Source: a virus. From it: a stretch of DNA of 36,557 bases. The position numbers and the translations under genes are program-made. How positions within the stretch are numbered: the stretch's first letter is position 1; every line of letters begins with the position of its first letter. The notes under the pieces were generated by a model that was not told the DNA's origin, did no database searches, and saw only the letters and a list, made by a program, of their open reading frames with translations. The DNA is taken from IMG/VR virus record IMGVR_UViG_3300023284_000638, positions 1-36,557 of that record; one strand, 5' to 3'. Below are positions 3,979 through 36,557 of this stretch, in pieces.

Positions 3979-3979
3979 A

Positions 3980-4315
3980 AAAGAAAATCAAAAGTAAAAG
4001 TTTGCAAAAGTTACTGTTCAAATAGTGCCTCTACTGTACTGAATTGGCTATTATTTCGTTTAAAAATTATCGTTTTCAAAAAGCTTCAAAAAATTTCATT
4101 TTATTTTCTCGAAAAAATTCATTTTAAAAAGTGCCGTTTAAAGGCTGTAGGCAGCGATTTTTGACTACTTTTTAAGAAAAGTTTTTAAACTTTTGGTTTT
4201 TTGTCGCTAGCAAATACTTTTGCTCGAAAGCCTAAAAGGTGCTGTTTGCAGTGAGTAGAGGCACTATTTTAGTCTTATGGATTTATAAACTTTTAGTTTT
4301 TTTCAGAAAGTTTTT
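3980..4315 (+). repeat. Dispersed element R2, with inverted partial copy
   Basis: The core is 3980-4211, again about 232 bp. Bases 4060-4143 are identical to the matching blocks in R4 and R5. The right arm reads AAACTTTTGGTTTTTTGTCG then CTAGC; the left arm is degraded. After the core comes the conserved flank (CAAATACTTTTGCTCGAAAG), then at 4242-4303 an inverted partial copy of an element's left end, recognised by TAGAGGCACTATTTTAG and AAACTTTTAGTTTTTTT. The element reaches almost to the terminase ATG. Confidence 0.88.
3989..4022 (-). promoter_or_regulatory. Candidate promoter for terL inside R2
   Basis: On the minus strand TACTTTTG (3996-3989) matches the Bacteroidota -7 pattern TAnnTTTG, and TTTG at 4022-4019 is a possible -33 box. 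The spacing is 22 bases, one more than usual. The implied leader would be only a few bases long before the ATG at 3978. This part of R2 differs from the other copies, so it may have been adapted as a promoter. Confidence 0.35.
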
Positions 4316-4370
4316 TGATCCGGTGTAAATGTAACGAAAAAATTAAGAAGCCTTGTAGATCTGGTCGATC

Positions 4371-4379
4371 TGTGGATAA
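4371..4379. other. Perfect DnaA-box sequence between R2 and R3
   Basis: TGTGGATAA is the exact complement of the DnaA consensus TTATCCACA. It lies in the spacer between the two tandem R elements. A single 9-mer match is expected fairly often by chance in a genome of this size, so this is weak evidence of an origin by itself. Confidence 0.3.
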
Positions 4380-4389
4380 GATTTACTAT

Positions 4390-4700
4390 AAATAATAATC
4401 GAACAGAATATTTTTCTAGCGAGAAAAAACTAAAAGTTTGAAAAAGTAGCTACCTAAATAGTGCCTCTATTGACTTCAAACAGCGATAATTAAGGTTAAG
4501 AATTTCGGTTTTGAAAAACGATCGAAAAATATTTTTTTTAATTCGTGAAAAAATTCATTTTAAAAAGTGCCGTTTAAAGGCTGTAGGCAGCGATTTTTGA
4601 CACTTTTTTGAGAAAAGTTTTTAAACTTTTAGTTTTTTCTCGCTAGCAAATACTTTTACTCGATAGTCGAAAAAGTGCTGTTTAAGAGACGTGAGGGCAT
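4390..4700 (+). repeat. Dispersed element R3
   Basis: The core is 4416-4647, exactly 232 bp, bounded by a perfect 24-bp inverted repeat (4416-4439 and 4623-4646) that starts CTAGCGAGAAAAAACTAAAA. The centre has diverged from the other copies (about 4500-4550), but the motifs GTGCCGTTTAAAGGCTGTAG and CAGCGATTTTTGAC remain. Homology with R5 extends beyond the arms on both sides: AATAATAATCGA on the left, and the terminator with GGGCATAAA on the right. Confidence 0.88.
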
Positions 4701-4704
4701 AAAG

Positions 4705-4730
4705 AAAGCCCTGAAATCTATCAGGGCTTT
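4705..4730 (-). terminator. Intrinsic terminator after the exported protein gene
   Basis: A perfect 10-bp stem (AAAGCCCTGA / TCAGGGCTTT) with a 6-base loop, followed on the minus strand by TCTTTATGCC. It lies just downstream of the gene ending at 4752 and upstream of R3 and terL, so it should separate early or packaging transcripts from terL transcription. The stem is symmetrical and could act on either strand. Confidence 0.75.
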
Positions 4731-4751
4731 GTCATCTTTCGATATTGATTA

Positions 4752-5183
4752 CTAACATGAAGAGATTACATGTCGGTGTTGAACCCTTCGTAACCTCCGA
4801 TACGCTGTGTTTTGGTTCTGTCGATCTGTGTCGAATTTCGTCATTAAGGTTTCCTTGTTAAGCCAATCACTTCTATGATCATCATTGTAAATCGATAAAT
4901 AAAAAGGCTGTAGATAATCCTTATCATACGTATAATCAAAGGAGCCTACAGTAGTAACCGTAATTACGTCTTTTGATATTCCATTTATTATTGGTTCTAT
5001 GTCATTGACTTTAGAAGTCAATATAACATCGGTTACGATTGCCTCTACTTCCGATAAATTGGCTAATTCAATGGCCCCGATATCTACATCAGTGGCCTTT
5101 TCGATTACACAGGCATTAGCTACACCTGCGCCTATAATTACAAATACGATCATAATAAATAGGGATATAAAATATTTTTTCAT
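4752..5183 (-). CDS. Predicted exported protein of unknown function (3' end possibly frameshifted)
   Basis: A 143-residue protein starting MKKYFISLFIMIVFVIIGAG, a clear signal peptide with a VANAC site that could be cut by signal peptidase I or act as a weak lipobox. The rest shows no family I recognise. The last 20 residues are Arg-rich (YRRLRRVQHRH) and written in codons such as CGG, AGG and CGA, unlike the rest. Removing one T from the run at 4810-4813 (an A run in the coding sense) would instead end the protein RIGGYEGFNTDM at 4766. It lies between the two terminase subunits; an envelope role such as superinfection exclusion is only a guess. Confidence 0.6.
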   Translation of the reverse strand: MKKYFISLFIMIVFVIIGAGVANACVIEKATDVDIGAIELANLSEVEAIVTDVILTSKVNDIEPIINGISKDVITVTTVGSFDYTYDKDYLQPFYLSIYNDDHRSDWLNKETLMTKFDTDRQNQNTAYRRLRRVQHRHVISSC

Positions 5184-6494: not shown

Positions 6495-6842
6495 TTATAT
6501 TCTAATATATTTCTCAATTTCAAAATAGCAATCCTCAAAATTATCATGCACATCTACCCGGTAACCCTGCGCTCTTAGCTTATCATGTATTGCAAGCTGT
6601 TTTTTATCAATCTTACCTACTTCGTTTTTAAGCTCAATAAAGAATCCATGATACTTGCCCCTAGCCAGTGCCAGGAACATGTCAGGGATACCCGCTACTA
6701 CTCCCATAGACTTAAATTTAGTTGCTTCGATTATGTGCCGCTTTCCTCCGTTCGGTATATGGAAGAATAACTGCCTTAATTCGGGGTACTCATTCCAGAC
6801 CGCCTGAAATACTTCGCTTTGTATTTTTGCTTCGCTTTTCAT
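6495..6842 (-). CDS. VRR-NUC domain nuclease
   Basis: A 115-residue single-domain nuclease of the PD-(D/E)XK superfamily. Visible signatures are an early glutamate (E10) in the first helix, HIPNGGKRH, the motif GIPDMFLALARGKYHGFFIELKN giving D54, E70 and K72 as the catalytic set, then GKIDKKQ and a final Gly-Tyr strand. Stand-alone VRR-NUC proteins in phages are thought to act as structure-specific nucleases, for example on branched or recombination intermediates. The gene lies directly downstream of the iteron cluster, close to the primase/helicase. Confidence 0.88.
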   Translation of the reverse strand: MKSEAKIQSEVFQAVWNEYPELRQLFFHIPNGGKRHIIEATKFKSMGVVAGIPDMFLALARGKYHGFFIELKNEVGKIDKKQLAIHDKLRAQGYRVDVHDNFEDCYFEIEKYIRI

Positions 6843-6866
6843 GATTTCTAGTCTTTATTTTCTTGC

Positions 6867-7226
6867 TGTCACCAGTTGTCACCAGTTCAATTACTTTAAT
6901 GTATAGTGCTTAATCAATTAATAATCAGTTACTTATGAGTGCTGTCACCAGTGTCACCAGTAAAAAAGATAAAACTTTCTCTATCAGTATTAGAAAAAAA
7001 AGTAACATAAAAATTTTATCTAACATTATTTTTTATTCTGAGTTATAATCAAAAATTAATGGTGACAAGTGGTGACATTATATAATTATATTTAATATAT
7101 ATATAAGAACAGGTACAAACCGCGATTAATAGACCTTAGAGCAATGTGATAGAAAGTTAGAAAGAAATAATATAACTTTAAGATGTCACCAGTTACCCTT
7201 AATCCATCTGGTGACATCTGGTGACA
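6867..7226. other. Iteron cluster, probable replication origin
   Basis: Nine copies of the 10-mer TGTCACCAGT or its complement lie in this gene-free stretch: 6867-6876, 6877-6886, 6943-6952, 6952-6961 and 7184-7193 in one orientation, and 7059-7067 (shorter), 7068-7077, 7207-7216 and 7217-7226 in the other. Several are tandem pairs, with very AT-rich DNA between them. Clustered iterons next to the gene for a VapE-type replication protein (7338-9599) are typical of an origin. A reading frame at 7092-7310 crosses the iterons and is probably not a gene. The rest of 6843-7337 shows nothing else except an operator-like sequence at 6919-6935. Confidence 0.7.
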
Positions 7227-7337
7227 CTGAGTACAACTTTGTACTCTACACGGAATTCGTATAACTTTTTTATATATTACTACACTATCGAGACTCGCAA
7301 GCTTTTTCATGATTTTCTACCCTTATTTATAATGATT

Positions 7338-9599
7338 CTAAAACAACTTACCAGTTTTGCCCTCATTTACTCCGAATTCTGGAATACCGATCCCTAAATG
7401 AGTCTTAATTTCATTAATAGTATGTTGATCTACCAAGTAGCACCATACCCTTTTACCGTGTACGTTTCTACGTTGCGTTCTGTCGAATCCTGCTATCTTC
7501 ATTTTCTTACCAAAAAGAATACTACTACCTTTCATGAACTGAAAACGCCTAGATATGTATTCCATTATCAAAACAGAAGGAACAGGCTCTACACCTGCCC
7601 CTACACACTCCTTAATAGCGTTTACTGCCGGGTCTTGTTCCATGTGGCTAGACAAACTTTTATTGTAGTCCTCTATATCGTTACGACCTATTAGGTAGTC
7701 GTAGCCTGATTTATACAGGTGGTACGCTTCCATAATCATAGCCTTACGATCTACCTTGTCGATCTGTTCGTAATTGATTTCATCAATGACTTCTATAGGT
7801 ATTATACGCCTGTTTGTTTCCTCCTTAATAACATCTGTCTCATTTGATGTAATGCCTAGAGTGGCTATCCTTTGGTATTCTGATTCTATAGAAGTGTGTA
7901 ATTTTCTGATCTTGATACGACTTTTAGATGTTAAAGCCTTAAATTTTTGAGCCTCTTTATAATTCCTGCTTGCTCCTTCATCATCAAAAATGAGCATGTT
8001 TTTGACCAATTTTATAATATTGTCTCTATCATTTGAATGGTCTAGAGTAGCCTCATCCTGAAACCTTCTAAGTTCTTCAGGTAATAACCGTCTGAAAAAT
8101 TCCGTTTTACCTGTATTTGTTTTTGCACCACATAGAGCCAATACTAACGGATTAGCTTCACCATATATGCCGCCTATCATGCCTACTAACCACTTAGTTA
8201 GAAATTTACGCTTATATTCCTCTGTAGTCAGATCTCCTACCTTGGTTACGCTAGGTATGCAGTCCGCCAAAGCATCTATATGACCTGTGGTGTTATTGGA
8301 CACATTATCTATAAAGAATTGCTTAAGAGGATTATATGTAGGTATTTTTTCAGAGTCTAATGAAGCTCTGACAAGGTGCTGCGGGGTCTTCTCATCTACA
8401 AACTTCATGCACTCTATCCATAATTGATTAGGCTTTCTGGCTTCCATTGGTTGACCATTGATCTCTACAAAATCGCCTAATTCATTGATTCTGATATCAT
8501 ATGTATTGATTAGATAAAGCTCTACACGTTCTGCTAGTGGCAAATCCTCCACAAATTGACGATTAATAGGAGATTTATAAACCTCCTCTACTATATGGTC
8601 TAGGTCTTCTGGATCAATTCCTAAATGAGATACAGCCTCTAGCGCCTCTTTCTTCTTAAAATTGGCAGCACGTTTAACGCTAATGATGTTTACAGCTTCC
8701 CTGGTAAGCTTAGAAGACACCTCTAGGCCCTGGTTCTTACAAAAGTAATAAAACGTCCCTATAGTGATCTTAGAGCCGTTGTCACTCTTTAAACAGTGTG
8801 TGTACTGTCTGTCGCACTTATCAGCGTCATAGTCTCCACTCATAGAGCTAATAGCATGGAAATATTCACGTCCACTATCTCCGAACTCCTCCGCCAATGC
8901 AAAACCACATGATAACCAATTCTCGTAGCCGTCTGTAATATCTATTCCTTTAGATGTGATCTCATTTATCAGGTCTGCAAAGTCTGATTTTGTGGCTATC
9001 ACATTAGCTACAGGTTTAGGCTTATTAACCTTTTTTAATCCGGCAACCTTTGACCAAGTAGATGATTCTGTATTGATAAATATATCATGATCATAGCTAG
9101 CGCCCCTCAATCTGGATACATTTATACACTGATTATCTGCCTCTACTTGATACTTCTCGCGGTAGTACTCTCTAAGTAGTGTAAAGTAATCCCTGTGCCG
9201 CTCTGCCTTCCCTATCTTAATTATTACAGCTAATCCCTGGCCGGAGATAGATTTAAATACAGCAAATGTAAACTCATCGCTTTTAAGTTCATCTTTTAGT
9301 AGGTCCACATCTGGTAAATGGTCAAAGTCCATACAGATAAAACCCGAATGAGCTATTAACATATCCTCTTTTCTCTTTGGCTCAAACGTACCGGATATAG
9401 TAGCACAGGGTAGAGATTTTTTGATTTCATTATAAATCTTCGAACCTTTCCCGAATCCTCTAGCCTTAATTACCTCCTCTTTCCATTTACCATCCTTGAC
9501 AGCCTCTAGGAATTTCATAATATCACTCGTACCGACTGGCTCCGCCTGAAAGTAATTGCTGAAGGAGCTTATTTCCCCATTGTGTTTGTGTCTGGACAT
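7338..9599 (-). CDS. Primase/helicase: VirE-N, PriCT-2-like and VapE ATPase domains
   Basis: A 753-residue replication protein with three recognisable parts. The N-terminal 190 residues resemble the BT4734/VirE N-terminal (primase-like) domain, with GFICMDFDHL and SGQGLAVIIKI. A PriCT-2-like region with GYENWLSCGFALAEEFGDSG and FYYFCKNQGLE follows (about 210-300). The VapE ATPase has Walker A GAKTNTGKT near 489-498, Walker B MLIFDDE near 534, and the sensor-like TLGITSNE with TNRRIIPIEV. Such proteins are thought to start replication of Bacteroidota phages and mobile elements. The gene lies next to the iteron cluster, its likely target. Confidence 0.87.
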   Translation of the reverse strand: MSRHKHNGEISSFSNYFQAEPVGTSDIMKFLEAVKDGKWKEEVIKARGFGKGSKIYNEIKKSLPCATISGTFEPKRKEDMLIAHSGFICMDFDHLPDVDLLKDELKSDEFTFAVFKSISGQGLAVIIKIGKAERHRDYFTLLREYYREKYQVEADNQCINVSRLRGASYDHDIFINTESSTWSKVAGLKKVNKPKPVANVIATKSDFADLINEITSKGIDITDGYENWLSCGFALAEEFGDSGREYFHAISSMSGDYDADKCDRQYTHCLKSDNGSKITIGTFYYFCKNQGLEVSSKLTREAVNIISVKRAANFKKKEALEAVSHLGIDPEDLDHIVEEVYKSPINRQFVEDLPLAERVELYLINTYDIRINELGDFVEINGQPMEARKPNQLWIECMKFVDEKTPQHLVRASLDSEKIPTYNPLKQFFIDNVSNNTTGHIDALADCIPSVTKVGDLTTEEYKRKFLTKWLVGMIGGIYGEANPLVLALCGAKTNTGKTEFFRRLLPEELRRFQDEATLDHSNDRDNIIKLVKNMLIFDDEGASRNYKEAQKFKALTSKSRIKIRKLHTSIESEYQRIATLGITSNETDVIKEETNRRIIPIEVIDEINYEQIDKVDRKAMIMEAYHLYKSGYDYLIGRNDIEDYNKSLSSHMEQDPAVNAIKECVGAGVEPVPSVLIMEYISRRFQFMKGSSILFGKKMKIAGFDRTQRRNVHGKRVWCYLVDQHTINEIKTHLGIGIPEFGVNEGKTGKLF

Positions 9600-12476: not shown

Positions 12477-12692
12477 TTAATGCCTCCACTCTAATTTTAA
12501 ATCTCTTAAGTCTGTTAGGGCAGATGTGTATTCCTTGAACCTGCGCCACTCTCCTCCACAATTATACACTACCCTCACAGCCGTATTGGTGTGATCTGGT
12601 ATTTCTTTTATCATTCCATTTTCCCATTTGTCGTTAGCCTTGTAATGTTCTGGCTGATAGTGTACTTTGTCACCAATTTTAAAATTTTCCAT
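12477..12692 (-). CDS. Conserved small phage protein (GDKVHYQPEHY type)
   Basis: A 71-residue protein with the blocks IGDKVHYQPEHYKANDKWEN, VRVVYNCGGEWRRFKEY and LKLEWRH. This is a small family common in Bacteroidota phages and elements, likely an SH3-like barrel. Function is unknown. It ends 3 bp before the helicase start and so is probably co-translated with it. Confidence 0.72.
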   Translation of the reverse strand: MENFKIGDKVHYQPEHYKANDKWENGMIKEIPDHTNTAVRVVYNCGGEWRRFKEYTSALTDLRDLKLEWRH

Positions 12693-33816: not shown

Positions 33817-34497
33817 TTAACAAATTAAGTCTAAAATTTTTACTTTTAAATCAATCAATTCGATACCGTCTAACGGATCATCGAAAATATATTTTACATT
33901 ACCTTCTTTTTCAGCCATACCCCAAAATAAGCGGTCAACTCTTCTATGTGGTAATGCACCTACCCCGCTAATATCAGAATTAGTAGCCAAAGCAGCAAGA
34001 AATTTCTTATATATAGGAAATAAAATAGGTTTTATTACTTTCTCGTATCGATCTTCTGATGTGAAAGTCTTATCAGTACTCTCTAAAATGACAATATTTA
34101 GTGAGACTGAATTAATATCATCGGTAGCTACGTCCTGATCAATAGGAAGTCTTAAGGCAATTAACGGGTACTTTTGAAGCTTAAACCTTAAATCTCTTTC
34201 TTTCAGTGTAAGCCTGTAGTTTATATCTCGCCTATGACCAAATAAAAAGTAAGGCTCCAACGATTTGTAAGATCCAGGGGAGACTATAACTGTAGTTGAT
34301 TCTATTTTGAAGCTGTTAGAATCTGCCGCTATCACCTCGAATTGTGTACCGTCAATGACTATCCACTCATTTACTTTTAAGGTATTTTTAACATTAATGG
34401 TAAATGTGCCGTCCACATTATCAACCACAGAATTAAATGTAGCTGTCTCTCTCATAGAGTCTACTACATCTGCGATAATATCTGGCAAAAATATCAT
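33817..34497 (-). CDS. Head-tail connector or tail-terminator-like protein
   Basis: A 226-residue protein. The N-terminal part includes VDNVDGTFTINVKNTLKVNE, a small beta unit found in several phage structural proteins. The middle has KYPLIALRLPIDQDV, and a helical region (EDRYEKVIKPILFPIYKKFL) follows. The end is acidic (IFDDPLDGIELIDLKV). This layout and the place between an adaptor-like gene and the tube protein suggest a neck or tail-completion role in Bacteroidota phages. It overlaps the upstream gene by 4 bp. Confidence 0.6.
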   Translation of the reverse strand: MIFLPDIIADVVDSMRETATFNSVVDNVDGTFTINVKNTLKVNEWIVIDGTQFEVIAADSNSFKIESTTVIVSPGSYKSLEPYFLFGHRRDINYRLTLKERDLRFKLQKYPLIALRLPIDQDVATDDINSVSLNIVILESTDKTFTSEDRYEKVIKPILFPIYKKFLAALATNSDISGVGALPHRRVDRLFWGMAEKEGNVKYIFDDPLDGIELIDLKVKILDLIC

Positions 34498-35147
34498 ATC
34501 CCAAATTCATTAATCTCAATATAAGGTCTGAAAACCCACCCGCTATAATTAGCACGGTTCACATTCAAGAAATTAAACGCTGTAGGCAGGTCATTAAAAG
34601 TGTCGTAAATGTCTGCGTACTTATCAAAAGTAAACCCAAAACTAAGATTATTGAATGATGTATTCAAAAAGTGAAAATCATGCGCAAACTCATTAAACCT
34701 AATAGACCCGTAAAGATCCAACATCTTACTCCATGAATTCACCATTTTACGCCTAGCGTTTGCAGCTACTGAATTTTCATGCTTAGCTACCACTTCAGCA
34801 GATCCCATAGTAGTAGTTAGATCCTCTAGCCTAATTTTGTAATACACATAATAGGCTATAGGGCTGACCTTTTCAGTATTCACTAAACCATTCCATTTTA
34901 AAGGTACTTGAGTACCAAAGAAATCTAATGTGAAATCTGCACCATCTTTGAGATCTATCCATCTCTGTTCTACTAGTGGGCCAGCATCCAAAGCCGTTTG
35001 AAACTCCTTAAACAAAGCTTGTCCCAGGAGACATATTAAAAATTCCTTCTCATACTTTTCTATGTTCGAGTCTATAGTATTTTGACGCTCCCTGATATTA
35101 GGGATGTCTAACTCTCCAAAGAAATATGAGCTATCAATTAGTACCAA
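34494..35147 (-). CDS. Head-tail adaptor-like protein of Bacteroidota phages
   Basis: A 217-residue protein with a recognisable N-terminal arrangement: an I-x-x-x-IEKYEKEFLICLLGQAL segment, the WIDLKDGADFTLDFFGTQVP region, a Trp-Asn-Gly-Leu, then VSPIAYYVYYKIRLEDLTTT. Proteins with this order (YE..yL..LLG, then W.GL...IaYYVYY) are frequent after the capsid gene in Bacteroidota phages and are thought to be connectors. Length is normal. The next gene is overlapped by 4 bp. Confidence 0.68.
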   Translation of the reverse strand: MVLIDSSYFFGELDIPNIRERQNTIDSNIEKYEKEFLICLLGQALFKEFQTALDAGPLVEQRWIDLKDGADFTLDFFGTQVPLKWNGLVNTEKVSPIAYYVYYKIRLEDLTTTMGSAEVVAKHENSVAANARRKMVNSWSKMLDLYGSIRFNEFAHDFHFLNTSFNNLSFGFTFDKYADIYDTFNDLPTAFNFLNVNRANYSGWVFRPYIEINEFGI

Positions 35148-35384: not shown

Positions 35385-36557
35385 TTAAACTGTTATTGCT
35401 ACAATAGCTGCATCAATGTCTATCACTTTCAAGAAAGCATCTACATCAACGTCTCTAATTAATAGACCTTCTCTCTTCTCAGCGAGAATAGTCATAGCAT
35501 TTTGAACAAATTGAGCGTTAATAAAGCCCATAGAAACAGTTACGCCTTCAAGGTCGTAAATTGTTCCGTATCTAAAGTCACCTACTAACATAGTATTAAT
35601 AGTAACTTGAGAACTTTCTATTACTCTCATGCCGTCAATTATTGTGCCATCGGCAGAGATAAAAGGAGGTAGTACATAGTGTCCATCAGTACCCTTCGCT
35701 AACTTGTAACGTAAAACATCAGACGGATTCATAACTACAGCCGTAGGCATGTATTTACTTTGCTTAGCGTTAGATAACTCTACTCTAAGAATTGCAAGCA
35801 AATCATATAGAGTACCATCGGCAGCCTTAACCTTTCCAGAGATAGCGTAAGCTGCTGCATCAAAAGTGACAGCCGAAGTAAACGCACCCTTTAAGTTTGG
35901 TGCAATGCCATTACCATCCCAAAGCTGCTCGTCTTCTTTGAGAGATAGATTAACATCTAACAATCTTCTAACTTCAGATTCTATAAAACCAACATCAGCA
36001 AACGACTCTTTAGTAACAGGGATAGAATCGGCTATCTTCTGAAGGCTCAAAGTACGCTCTATCCATGTAATTACAGATTCTGGCTTAGTAGCAGCTTCAG
36101 CTACTGTATCAGCCCCACGTGTAATGGCCTGCTGATCGAAGTAACGAATAACCCCGTTAGAAGATGGGGACACACCCGCATGACGAAACAAACCACTCAT
36201 AACAGTTCCTAAGAAAGGAATCTGACCAATATCAGGCAATCTCATTGCCATAGTTGACGCTGTAACAGCCGTACGCTGCACGTGGCTATTTTCGCGATGT
36301 CGTCTTTTTTCTCTTCGAACAATTGCTCTATAGATTCTACATTGTTACCAGACTTTTCGCCTAGTTTACGCATTTCTTCGCCTTGTGCCTCTATAGTTTC
36401 TTTCAACTCTTTGGCGAAGTCAGCAGTAATGCCTAATGCTTCCATCTTTTCAGTGAAGCCTTCCGCAGTCATTAAGCCCTTATTAGCTGCCTTAATTTCC
36501 GCCTGCACAGTTTCTAAAGCTTCTTTTTTTCCAGCTTTAACTTCTGCTTTTGTTTGT
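35385..36557 (-). CDS. Major capsid protein (HK97-like), main part with frame break
   Basis: The capsid protein, continuing the gene that starts at position 188. The mature part begins near QRTAVTASTMAMRLPDIGQI and goes on through ITWIERTLSLQKIADSIPVT, LRYKLAKGTDGHYVLPPFIS, IIDGMRVIESSQVTINTMLV and ALTIL-type strands (AMTILAEKREGLLIRDVDVD), typical of the HK97 fold. As written, the scaffold frame stops at 36242 and the capsid frame opens at a GTG at 36281, overlapping by 40 bp. One extra base in the T run 36289-36292 would join them as DDIAKNSHVQRTAVTAS. Intact length would be about 405 residues. Processing would remove roughly the first 110. Confidence 0.88.
36414..36557. repeat. Terminal direct repeat, right copy (contig overlap)
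   Basis: This is identical to bases 1-144. It lies in the scaffold part of the capsid gene, so the left and right gene fragments join seamlessly. This supports a circular map. Confidence 0.95.

Follow-up and report, generated by a model that had tools for sequence, protein, structure and literature searches.

Next to the gene for a VapE-type replication protein, the phage genome analysed here carries a cluster of short repeats in DNA that holds no good gene, and this raises the question of whether the cluster is the site at which replication of the phage begins. The window, by which we mean the whole stretch of 36,557 bp, has a 144-bp direct repeat at its two ends (1–144 and 36414–36557), and we therefore take it to be a complete or near-complete tailed phage genome; the repeat may be a real terminal repeat or may reflect overlap in the assembly of a genome that is circular or permuted. 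Its structural set comprises the large and small terminase subunits, portal, head protease, major head protein, tape measure and holin, and nearly every gene lies on the minus strand. After the gene for the terminase large subunit there are 773 bp without a convincing gene (3979–4751), where GC skew has the opposite sign to that of nearly the whole genome, and the open reading frame beyond (4752–5183, 143 residues) has a below-cutoff match to a microvirus F capsid protein (E 2.9e-4) that is probably due to chance.

Iterons and AT-rich core of the intergenic region

The repeats lie in a 495-bp intergenic region (6843–7337, 28.9% GC), bounded on one side by the VapE gene and on the other by a gene for a VRR-NUC nuclease (6495–6842, minus strand; PF08774, E 2.7e-07), which concerns us here as context only. 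The 8-mer TGTCACCA is found nine times within the 360 bp from 6867 to 7226 and eleven times genome-wide, the other two copies being at 12668 and 19184. Chance predicts 0.008 copies per 360 bp, and the Poisson probability of finding at least nine is 3.5e-25 (~1e-25 as a summary value) before a factor of ~100 for the choice of window. The initial annotation had placed a cluster at these coordinates, correctly, and had described it as a 10-mer occurring nine times in both orientations, with several copies in tandem pairs. There are indeed nine sites, but only as copies of the 8-mer: the 10-mer TGTCACCAGT is exact at five positions (6867, 6877, 6943, 6952 and 7184), all on the plus strand, while the iterons on the minus strand (7058, 7068, 7207 and 7217) each have one mismatch to it, at position 9 or 10.

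Tandem pairs are likewise present in both orientations, the array being made up of four pairs, with 9–10 bp spacing, and one single iteron, such that four of the nine iterons are inverted. The distal pair (6867–6886, plus strand) consists of two copies of TGTCACCAGT at 10-bp spacing. Inner pair A (6943–6961, plus strand) has the same two words at 9-bp spacing, with one base shared, and inner pair B (7058–7077, minus strand), which is inverted with respect to pair A, has TGTCACCATT and TGTCACCACT at 10-bp spacing. The single iteron, TGTCACCAGT, stands at 7184–7193 (plus strand), and the pair nearest the VapE stop codon (7207–7226, minus strand) consists of two copies of TGTCACCAGA, again at 10-bp spacing. 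A scan of the whole genome revealed no second 7-mer clustered at least five times within 400 bp, and when the whole window was scanned for two tandem and two inverted tandem 7-mers, the array site alone was returned.

Between the two inner pairs lies an AT-rich core of 96 bp (6962–7057, 15.6% GC), which is the putative melting site. Its GC content falls in the lowest 0.03% of the genome's 96-bp windows, its nearest-neighbour stacking energy ranks 21 of 36462 across the whole genome, and by the same measure the genome's least stable windows begin at 6947–7087. The DNA between the inverted pairs is thus practically the least stable in the phage. As to coding capacity, the longest open reading frame inside the gap is one of 72 residues (7092–7310, minus strand) that runs through the iterons, and searches of the gap with Rfam and ARAGORN returned no RNA family and no tRNA, which bears out the earlier description of these ~360 bp as carrying no good gene.

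We found no DnaA box in the intergenic region. This, together with the VapE helicase as neighbour and the inversion of four of the nine iterons, sets the array apart from those of iteron plasmids of the Rep_3/RepA type, in which a dedicated Rep initiator goes with direct iterons flanked by DnaA boxes. GC skew, which had been put forward as a check on the origin, is negative over almost all of the genome and keeps its sign at the array; with nearly every gene on the same strand, it is uninformative as an origin marker and is of no help here.

The VapE protein and the array in its relatives

The array lies directly 3' of the VapE gene, since that gene (7338–9599, minus strand) ends, rather than begins, at the array, and the iterons are found 112–472 bp past its stop codon. 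The product, of 753 residues, is a replication protein of the VapE type, as initially annotated, and is a primase-helicase in which a BT4734-like primase, PriCT-2 and the VapE helicase are fused (Pfam BT4734-like_N, E 4.8e-20; PriCT_2, E 5.9e-15; VapE-like, E 9.8e-20); it also matches the PHROG 'DNA primase' (E 7e-74). While a sequence search of solved structures gave no real match, the AlphaFold2 model of the protein (mean pLDDT 87.6, from 49 sequences) has as its best match among solved structures SaPI5 PriRep1 with dsDNA (7pds, E 4.9e-13; TM 0.62 by target length, 14% identity), with other D5/prim-pol helicases ranking next. Judging by the model, VapE is an AAA+ helicase related to SaPI Rep/PriRep that may form a hexamer.

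The last ~110 residues of VapE are modelled as a winged helix of the form helix-helix-strand-strand, and we propose the predicted domain at approximately residues 640–735 (7395–7682, minus strand) as the iteron reader. VIA-align matched the C-terminus to RFX (Z 6.9), the P4 origin-binding domain 1ka8 (Z 5.4) and many winged helices. The match to 1ka8 is weak, its Z of 5.4 being tied with those of many unrelated winged helices, and a Foldseek search with the C-terminal domain alone gave nothing below E 0.04. The VIA-align rows support assignment of the model to the winged-helix fold class, and not a specific kinship.

To what extent such an array accompanies VapE was surveyed among its relatives, the closest of which have 27–38% identity. 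From 189 loci with a VapE match, 109 non-redundant loci, each with 650 bp of downstream sequence, were kept, and an array was defined as a 7-mer with at least five copies, above all of 30 dinucleotide shuffles, in a 650-bp zone that spans the VapE stop and the DNA 3' of it. By this definition 59 of the 109 loci have an array 3' of VapE, while words with at least five copies are found upstream of the gene at 6 of 98 loci and inside the gene at six. The densest cluster of the whole locus falls in the 650-bp zone in 60 cases out of 109, compared with 8.8 expected by length. A stricter signature (two tandem and two inverted tandem copies, with at most one mismatch) was detected downstream at 33/109 loci, in the shuffles at 0/109, upstream at 1/91 and inside the gene at 2/109. 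About half of the 109 relatives, including phi46:1 and P12024S, have no array by the 7-mer method, and the 7-mer search found none in Burkholderia phage Mica. An exact-pattern scan for TGTCACCANTTGTCACCA returned 24 contigs, in which true arrays were mixed with single chance pairs.

Same-strand copies in the relatives are 8–12 bp apart, with a peak at 9 bp, and the facing sets are separated by 102 ± 12 bp (49 loci). At all 49 loci the DNA between these sets has a lower GC content than the 3' end of the gene (mean 30.5% vs 46.6%). The words themselves vary, and include TGTCACC, TGTAACC, TGTCGCA, GTTACCT, TGTTCCA, GTCCCAC, TGTAGTA and GGTCAG, among others. An apparent 'GT' polarity of the oriented words (40/49) was dropped, given that the reverse complement has it too in 28/49, because GTNAC is nearly palindromic. 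The gene that follows the array varies as well: at 51 loci it is VRR-NUC in 13, a ResIII-type helicase in nine, the terminase small subunit in five and other genes in the remainder, and the array therefore belongs to VapE and not to the genes downstream.

Among named phages, the layout is present in Flavobacterium phages snusmum6-1, FPSV-S1 and lotta8-1, in Streptococcus phage PH15 and in Bordetella phage BPP-1, and in a looser form in Staphylococcus phage 47 and in SW6, the latter passing the loose test and failing the strict one. VRR-NUC is the next gene in Muminvirus also. In Muminvirus mymlan6-1 (L031, 7182–8080), a nuclease gene (7259–7822) splits an array that is continuous in snusmum6-1, and this gene would be a homing-type insertion into a probable origin.

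Known origins and alternative roles of the array

The closest precedent in a tailed phage is Streptococcus thermophilus phage Sfi21. In its record the stretch 34487–34784, which immediately follows a putative primase, is labelled 'origin of replication, 302 bp non-coding region, phage inhibitory sequence'. This region is reported to work as an independent origin during infection, and copies of it can act as decoys (PMC6356513). Its sequence contains TTAGTTACTTAGTTAC, then ~70 bp of A/T-rich DNA, then GTAACTAAGTAACTAA, so that, as in the window, facing tandem pairs flank A/T-rich DNA at a site 3' of a putative primase; the pairs have 8-bp spacing and are ~78 bp apart. Sfi21 differs from the window in its word, which is TTAGTTAC and not TGTCACCAGT, in having separate primase genes and in its Firmicutes host.

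PICI origins are located 3' of rep and have an AT-rich region with an iteron set on each side (PMC6092414), and SaPI Rep binds its downstream iterons via a C-terminal domain (PMC7581432). Like the origins of this group (SaPIbov1, SaPI5 and EcCICFT073; Rep or Pri-Rep), that proposed for the window would lie directly 3' of the gene for an initiator-helicase, and the two-set architecture is shared, with 6943–6961 and 7058–7077 placed around 96 bp of 15.6% GC. The window is not a PICI, however, because it has structural genes of its own, and as a complete tailed phage with a BT4734-like primase domain and its own iteron word it is distinct from these elements. The sequences surveyed contradict a 2018 statement that this layout is confined to PICIs.

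The alpha protein of satellite phage P4 (ori1/crr; iteron GGTGAACA) is, like VapE, a primase-helicase, and 1ka8 was one of the weak fold matches to the VapE C-terminus. Alpha has a C-terminal winged helix with which it binds short repeats, and its primase is of the Toprim type (PMC4234260), whereas the window protein has a BT4734-like AEP domain and PriCT_2 according to Pfam. In pRN1 (ORF904) and in the BPP-1/BIP-1 model, the essential origin region is located 3' of a primase-SF3 helicase-winged helix protein, as is the proposed origin of the window. For BIP-1, which is near-identical to BPP-1, no origin iterons were reported and a stem-loop origin was proposed (PMC4234260, a 2014 model). In contrast to that model, BPP-1 (L213, NC_005357), like the window, has iteron pairs: facing tandem GTTTGCCTC pairs, GTTTGCCTCGTTTGCCTC and GAGGCAAACGAGGCAA, flank AT-rich DNA 467–571 bp 3' of the stop codon of the primase (bbp29), such that a phage whose proposed origin was a stem-loop carries the paired arrangement.

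Building on the repeats, geometry, duplex instability, position by the VapE gene and predicted fold established above, we consider it probable, at approximately 0.87, that 6843–7337 in its entirety is a replication origin with VapE as its iteron reader. The initial annotation had suggested a probable origin, and this is strengthened by a position and geometry conserved in dozens of relatives, the low stability of the core, the layout of Sfi21 and the fold match to PriRep1. Binding, melting, double-hexamer loading, priming and a bidirectional start are steps that we infer by analogy with SaPI, P4 and Sfi21. The C-terminal winged helix of VapE would bind the nine TGTCACCA iterons, and VapE at the facing pairs 6943–6961 and 7058–7077 would provide the starting points for helicase hexamers on both sides of the core. 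The 96-bp AT-rich core would then melt, the helicase domains would unwind outward, and the AEP-type primase domain, or a host primase, would prime both strands, while the other five iterons may provide extra binding or control.

There are three other possible roles for the array. The first is that the iterons are operators, at which a regulator or VapE itself controls transcription of the downstream VRR-NUC/terminase operon. The distal pair ends just 25 bp ahead of the VRR-NUC start, and iteron-binding initiators often repress transcription too. Against this, the array stays 3' of VapE whichever gene follows, the region has neither a -7 box of the Bacteroidetes type on the operon strand nor more sigma-70-like sites than expected, and nine sites around an AT-rich core are more than an operator needs. 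Furthermore, the equivalent site in Sfi21 is reported to function as an origin (PMC6356513), and we regard a purely regulatory role as unlikely.

The second is that the array is a packaging site (pac), its repeats being recognised by the terminase small subunit, whose gene is 1.1 kb downstream in the window and comes next in 5 of the 51 loci. One relative, L004, is the one clear exception to the 3' position: eight TGTTGCA iterons (626–833) lie upstream of VapE, just before a divergent gene resembling that for the terminase small subunit, which would suit a pac site in that locus. At the other 46 loci, however, a different gene follows, while the array sits on the 3' side of VapE rather than ahead of it; a low-stability core between facing pairs resembles an origin, and the Sfi21 array is ~6 kb from the cos site of the same record, all of which makes us very doubtful that the array serves in packaging. 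The third and least likely, a VRR-NUC target or recombination site, or a partition/incompatibility (decoy) element without origin function, draws on VRR-NUC following the array here, as it does in Muminvirus and 13 of 51 relatives, and on origin copies being able to act as decoys in Sfi21 (PMC6356513), but most relatives with an array have no adjacent VRR-NUC, and a decoy effect is a consequence of being an origin.

With the intergenic region read as an origin, an uncultured phage gains a defined origin and initiator. The probable origin of the window belongs to a known type, and the observations from the wider survey are of more interest than the single site. They show that a layout described for satellites, in which two iteron sets and an AT-rich core follow the initiator gene, is present in dozens of tailed-phage lineages as well, a statement whose novelty we have judged against the open-access literature.

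Iteron word and the VapE C-terminus

If the C-terminus of VapE reads the iterons, the two might be expected to change together. Across divergent proteins, once helicase identity was allowed for, similarity of the word showed no correlation with identity of the C-terminus (partial rank r 0.07, p 0.16), in a matrix test in which divergent words align poorly and related loci are few. A closer comparison is offered by 13 near-identical proteins. Eleven of their loci (L051–L058, L060, L062 and L064) carry GGTGGTCAGAG-type iterons in the first 260 bp after the VapE stop, with seven copies in ten loci and four in L052, while the other two (L063 and L081) carry six copies of GGTGTACAGAG. When the DNA of L051 and L081 is aligned, the iteron copies differ at the same two bases. 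In a comparison of the proteins that left out L052, only two of 728 columns distinguish the groups; these two, 709 (K/R) and 726 (A or S/N), fall within the final 20 residues.

In the final 150 bp of the gene and the 300 bp that follow it, L063 and L081 have 96–100% identity, compared with 75–95% over most of the remaining gene. Because identity peaks there, the C-terminus and the array seem to travel together. Our reading of these alignments is that the iterons and residues 709/726 co-vary as a natural specificity switch would, a correlation in which the array and the C-terminus are physically adjacent and the minority group consists of two genomes.

More tentatively, it is conceivable, though we would not presume it, that a large class of VapE-type phages share a swappable cassette for specificity, made up of the C-terminal winged helix and the array. 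If so, all iterons of an array would change word together with a few residues of the reader, co-infecting phages and satellites would be unable to fire or titrate each other's origins, and the word would define replication compatibility groups that could be read from sequence. The fast turnover of the word at a fixed geometry and the two-residue case offer a route to learning how initiators read DNA, and the same data may indicate which phages can interfere with each other's replication.

A further combination of reader and word was seen in L023, where the gene at 69–2551 shares only the BT4734 primase half with the VapE of the window (E 2e-36), the helicase half being different. This gene is followed by ten TGTCACC iterons, the same word accompanying another motor.
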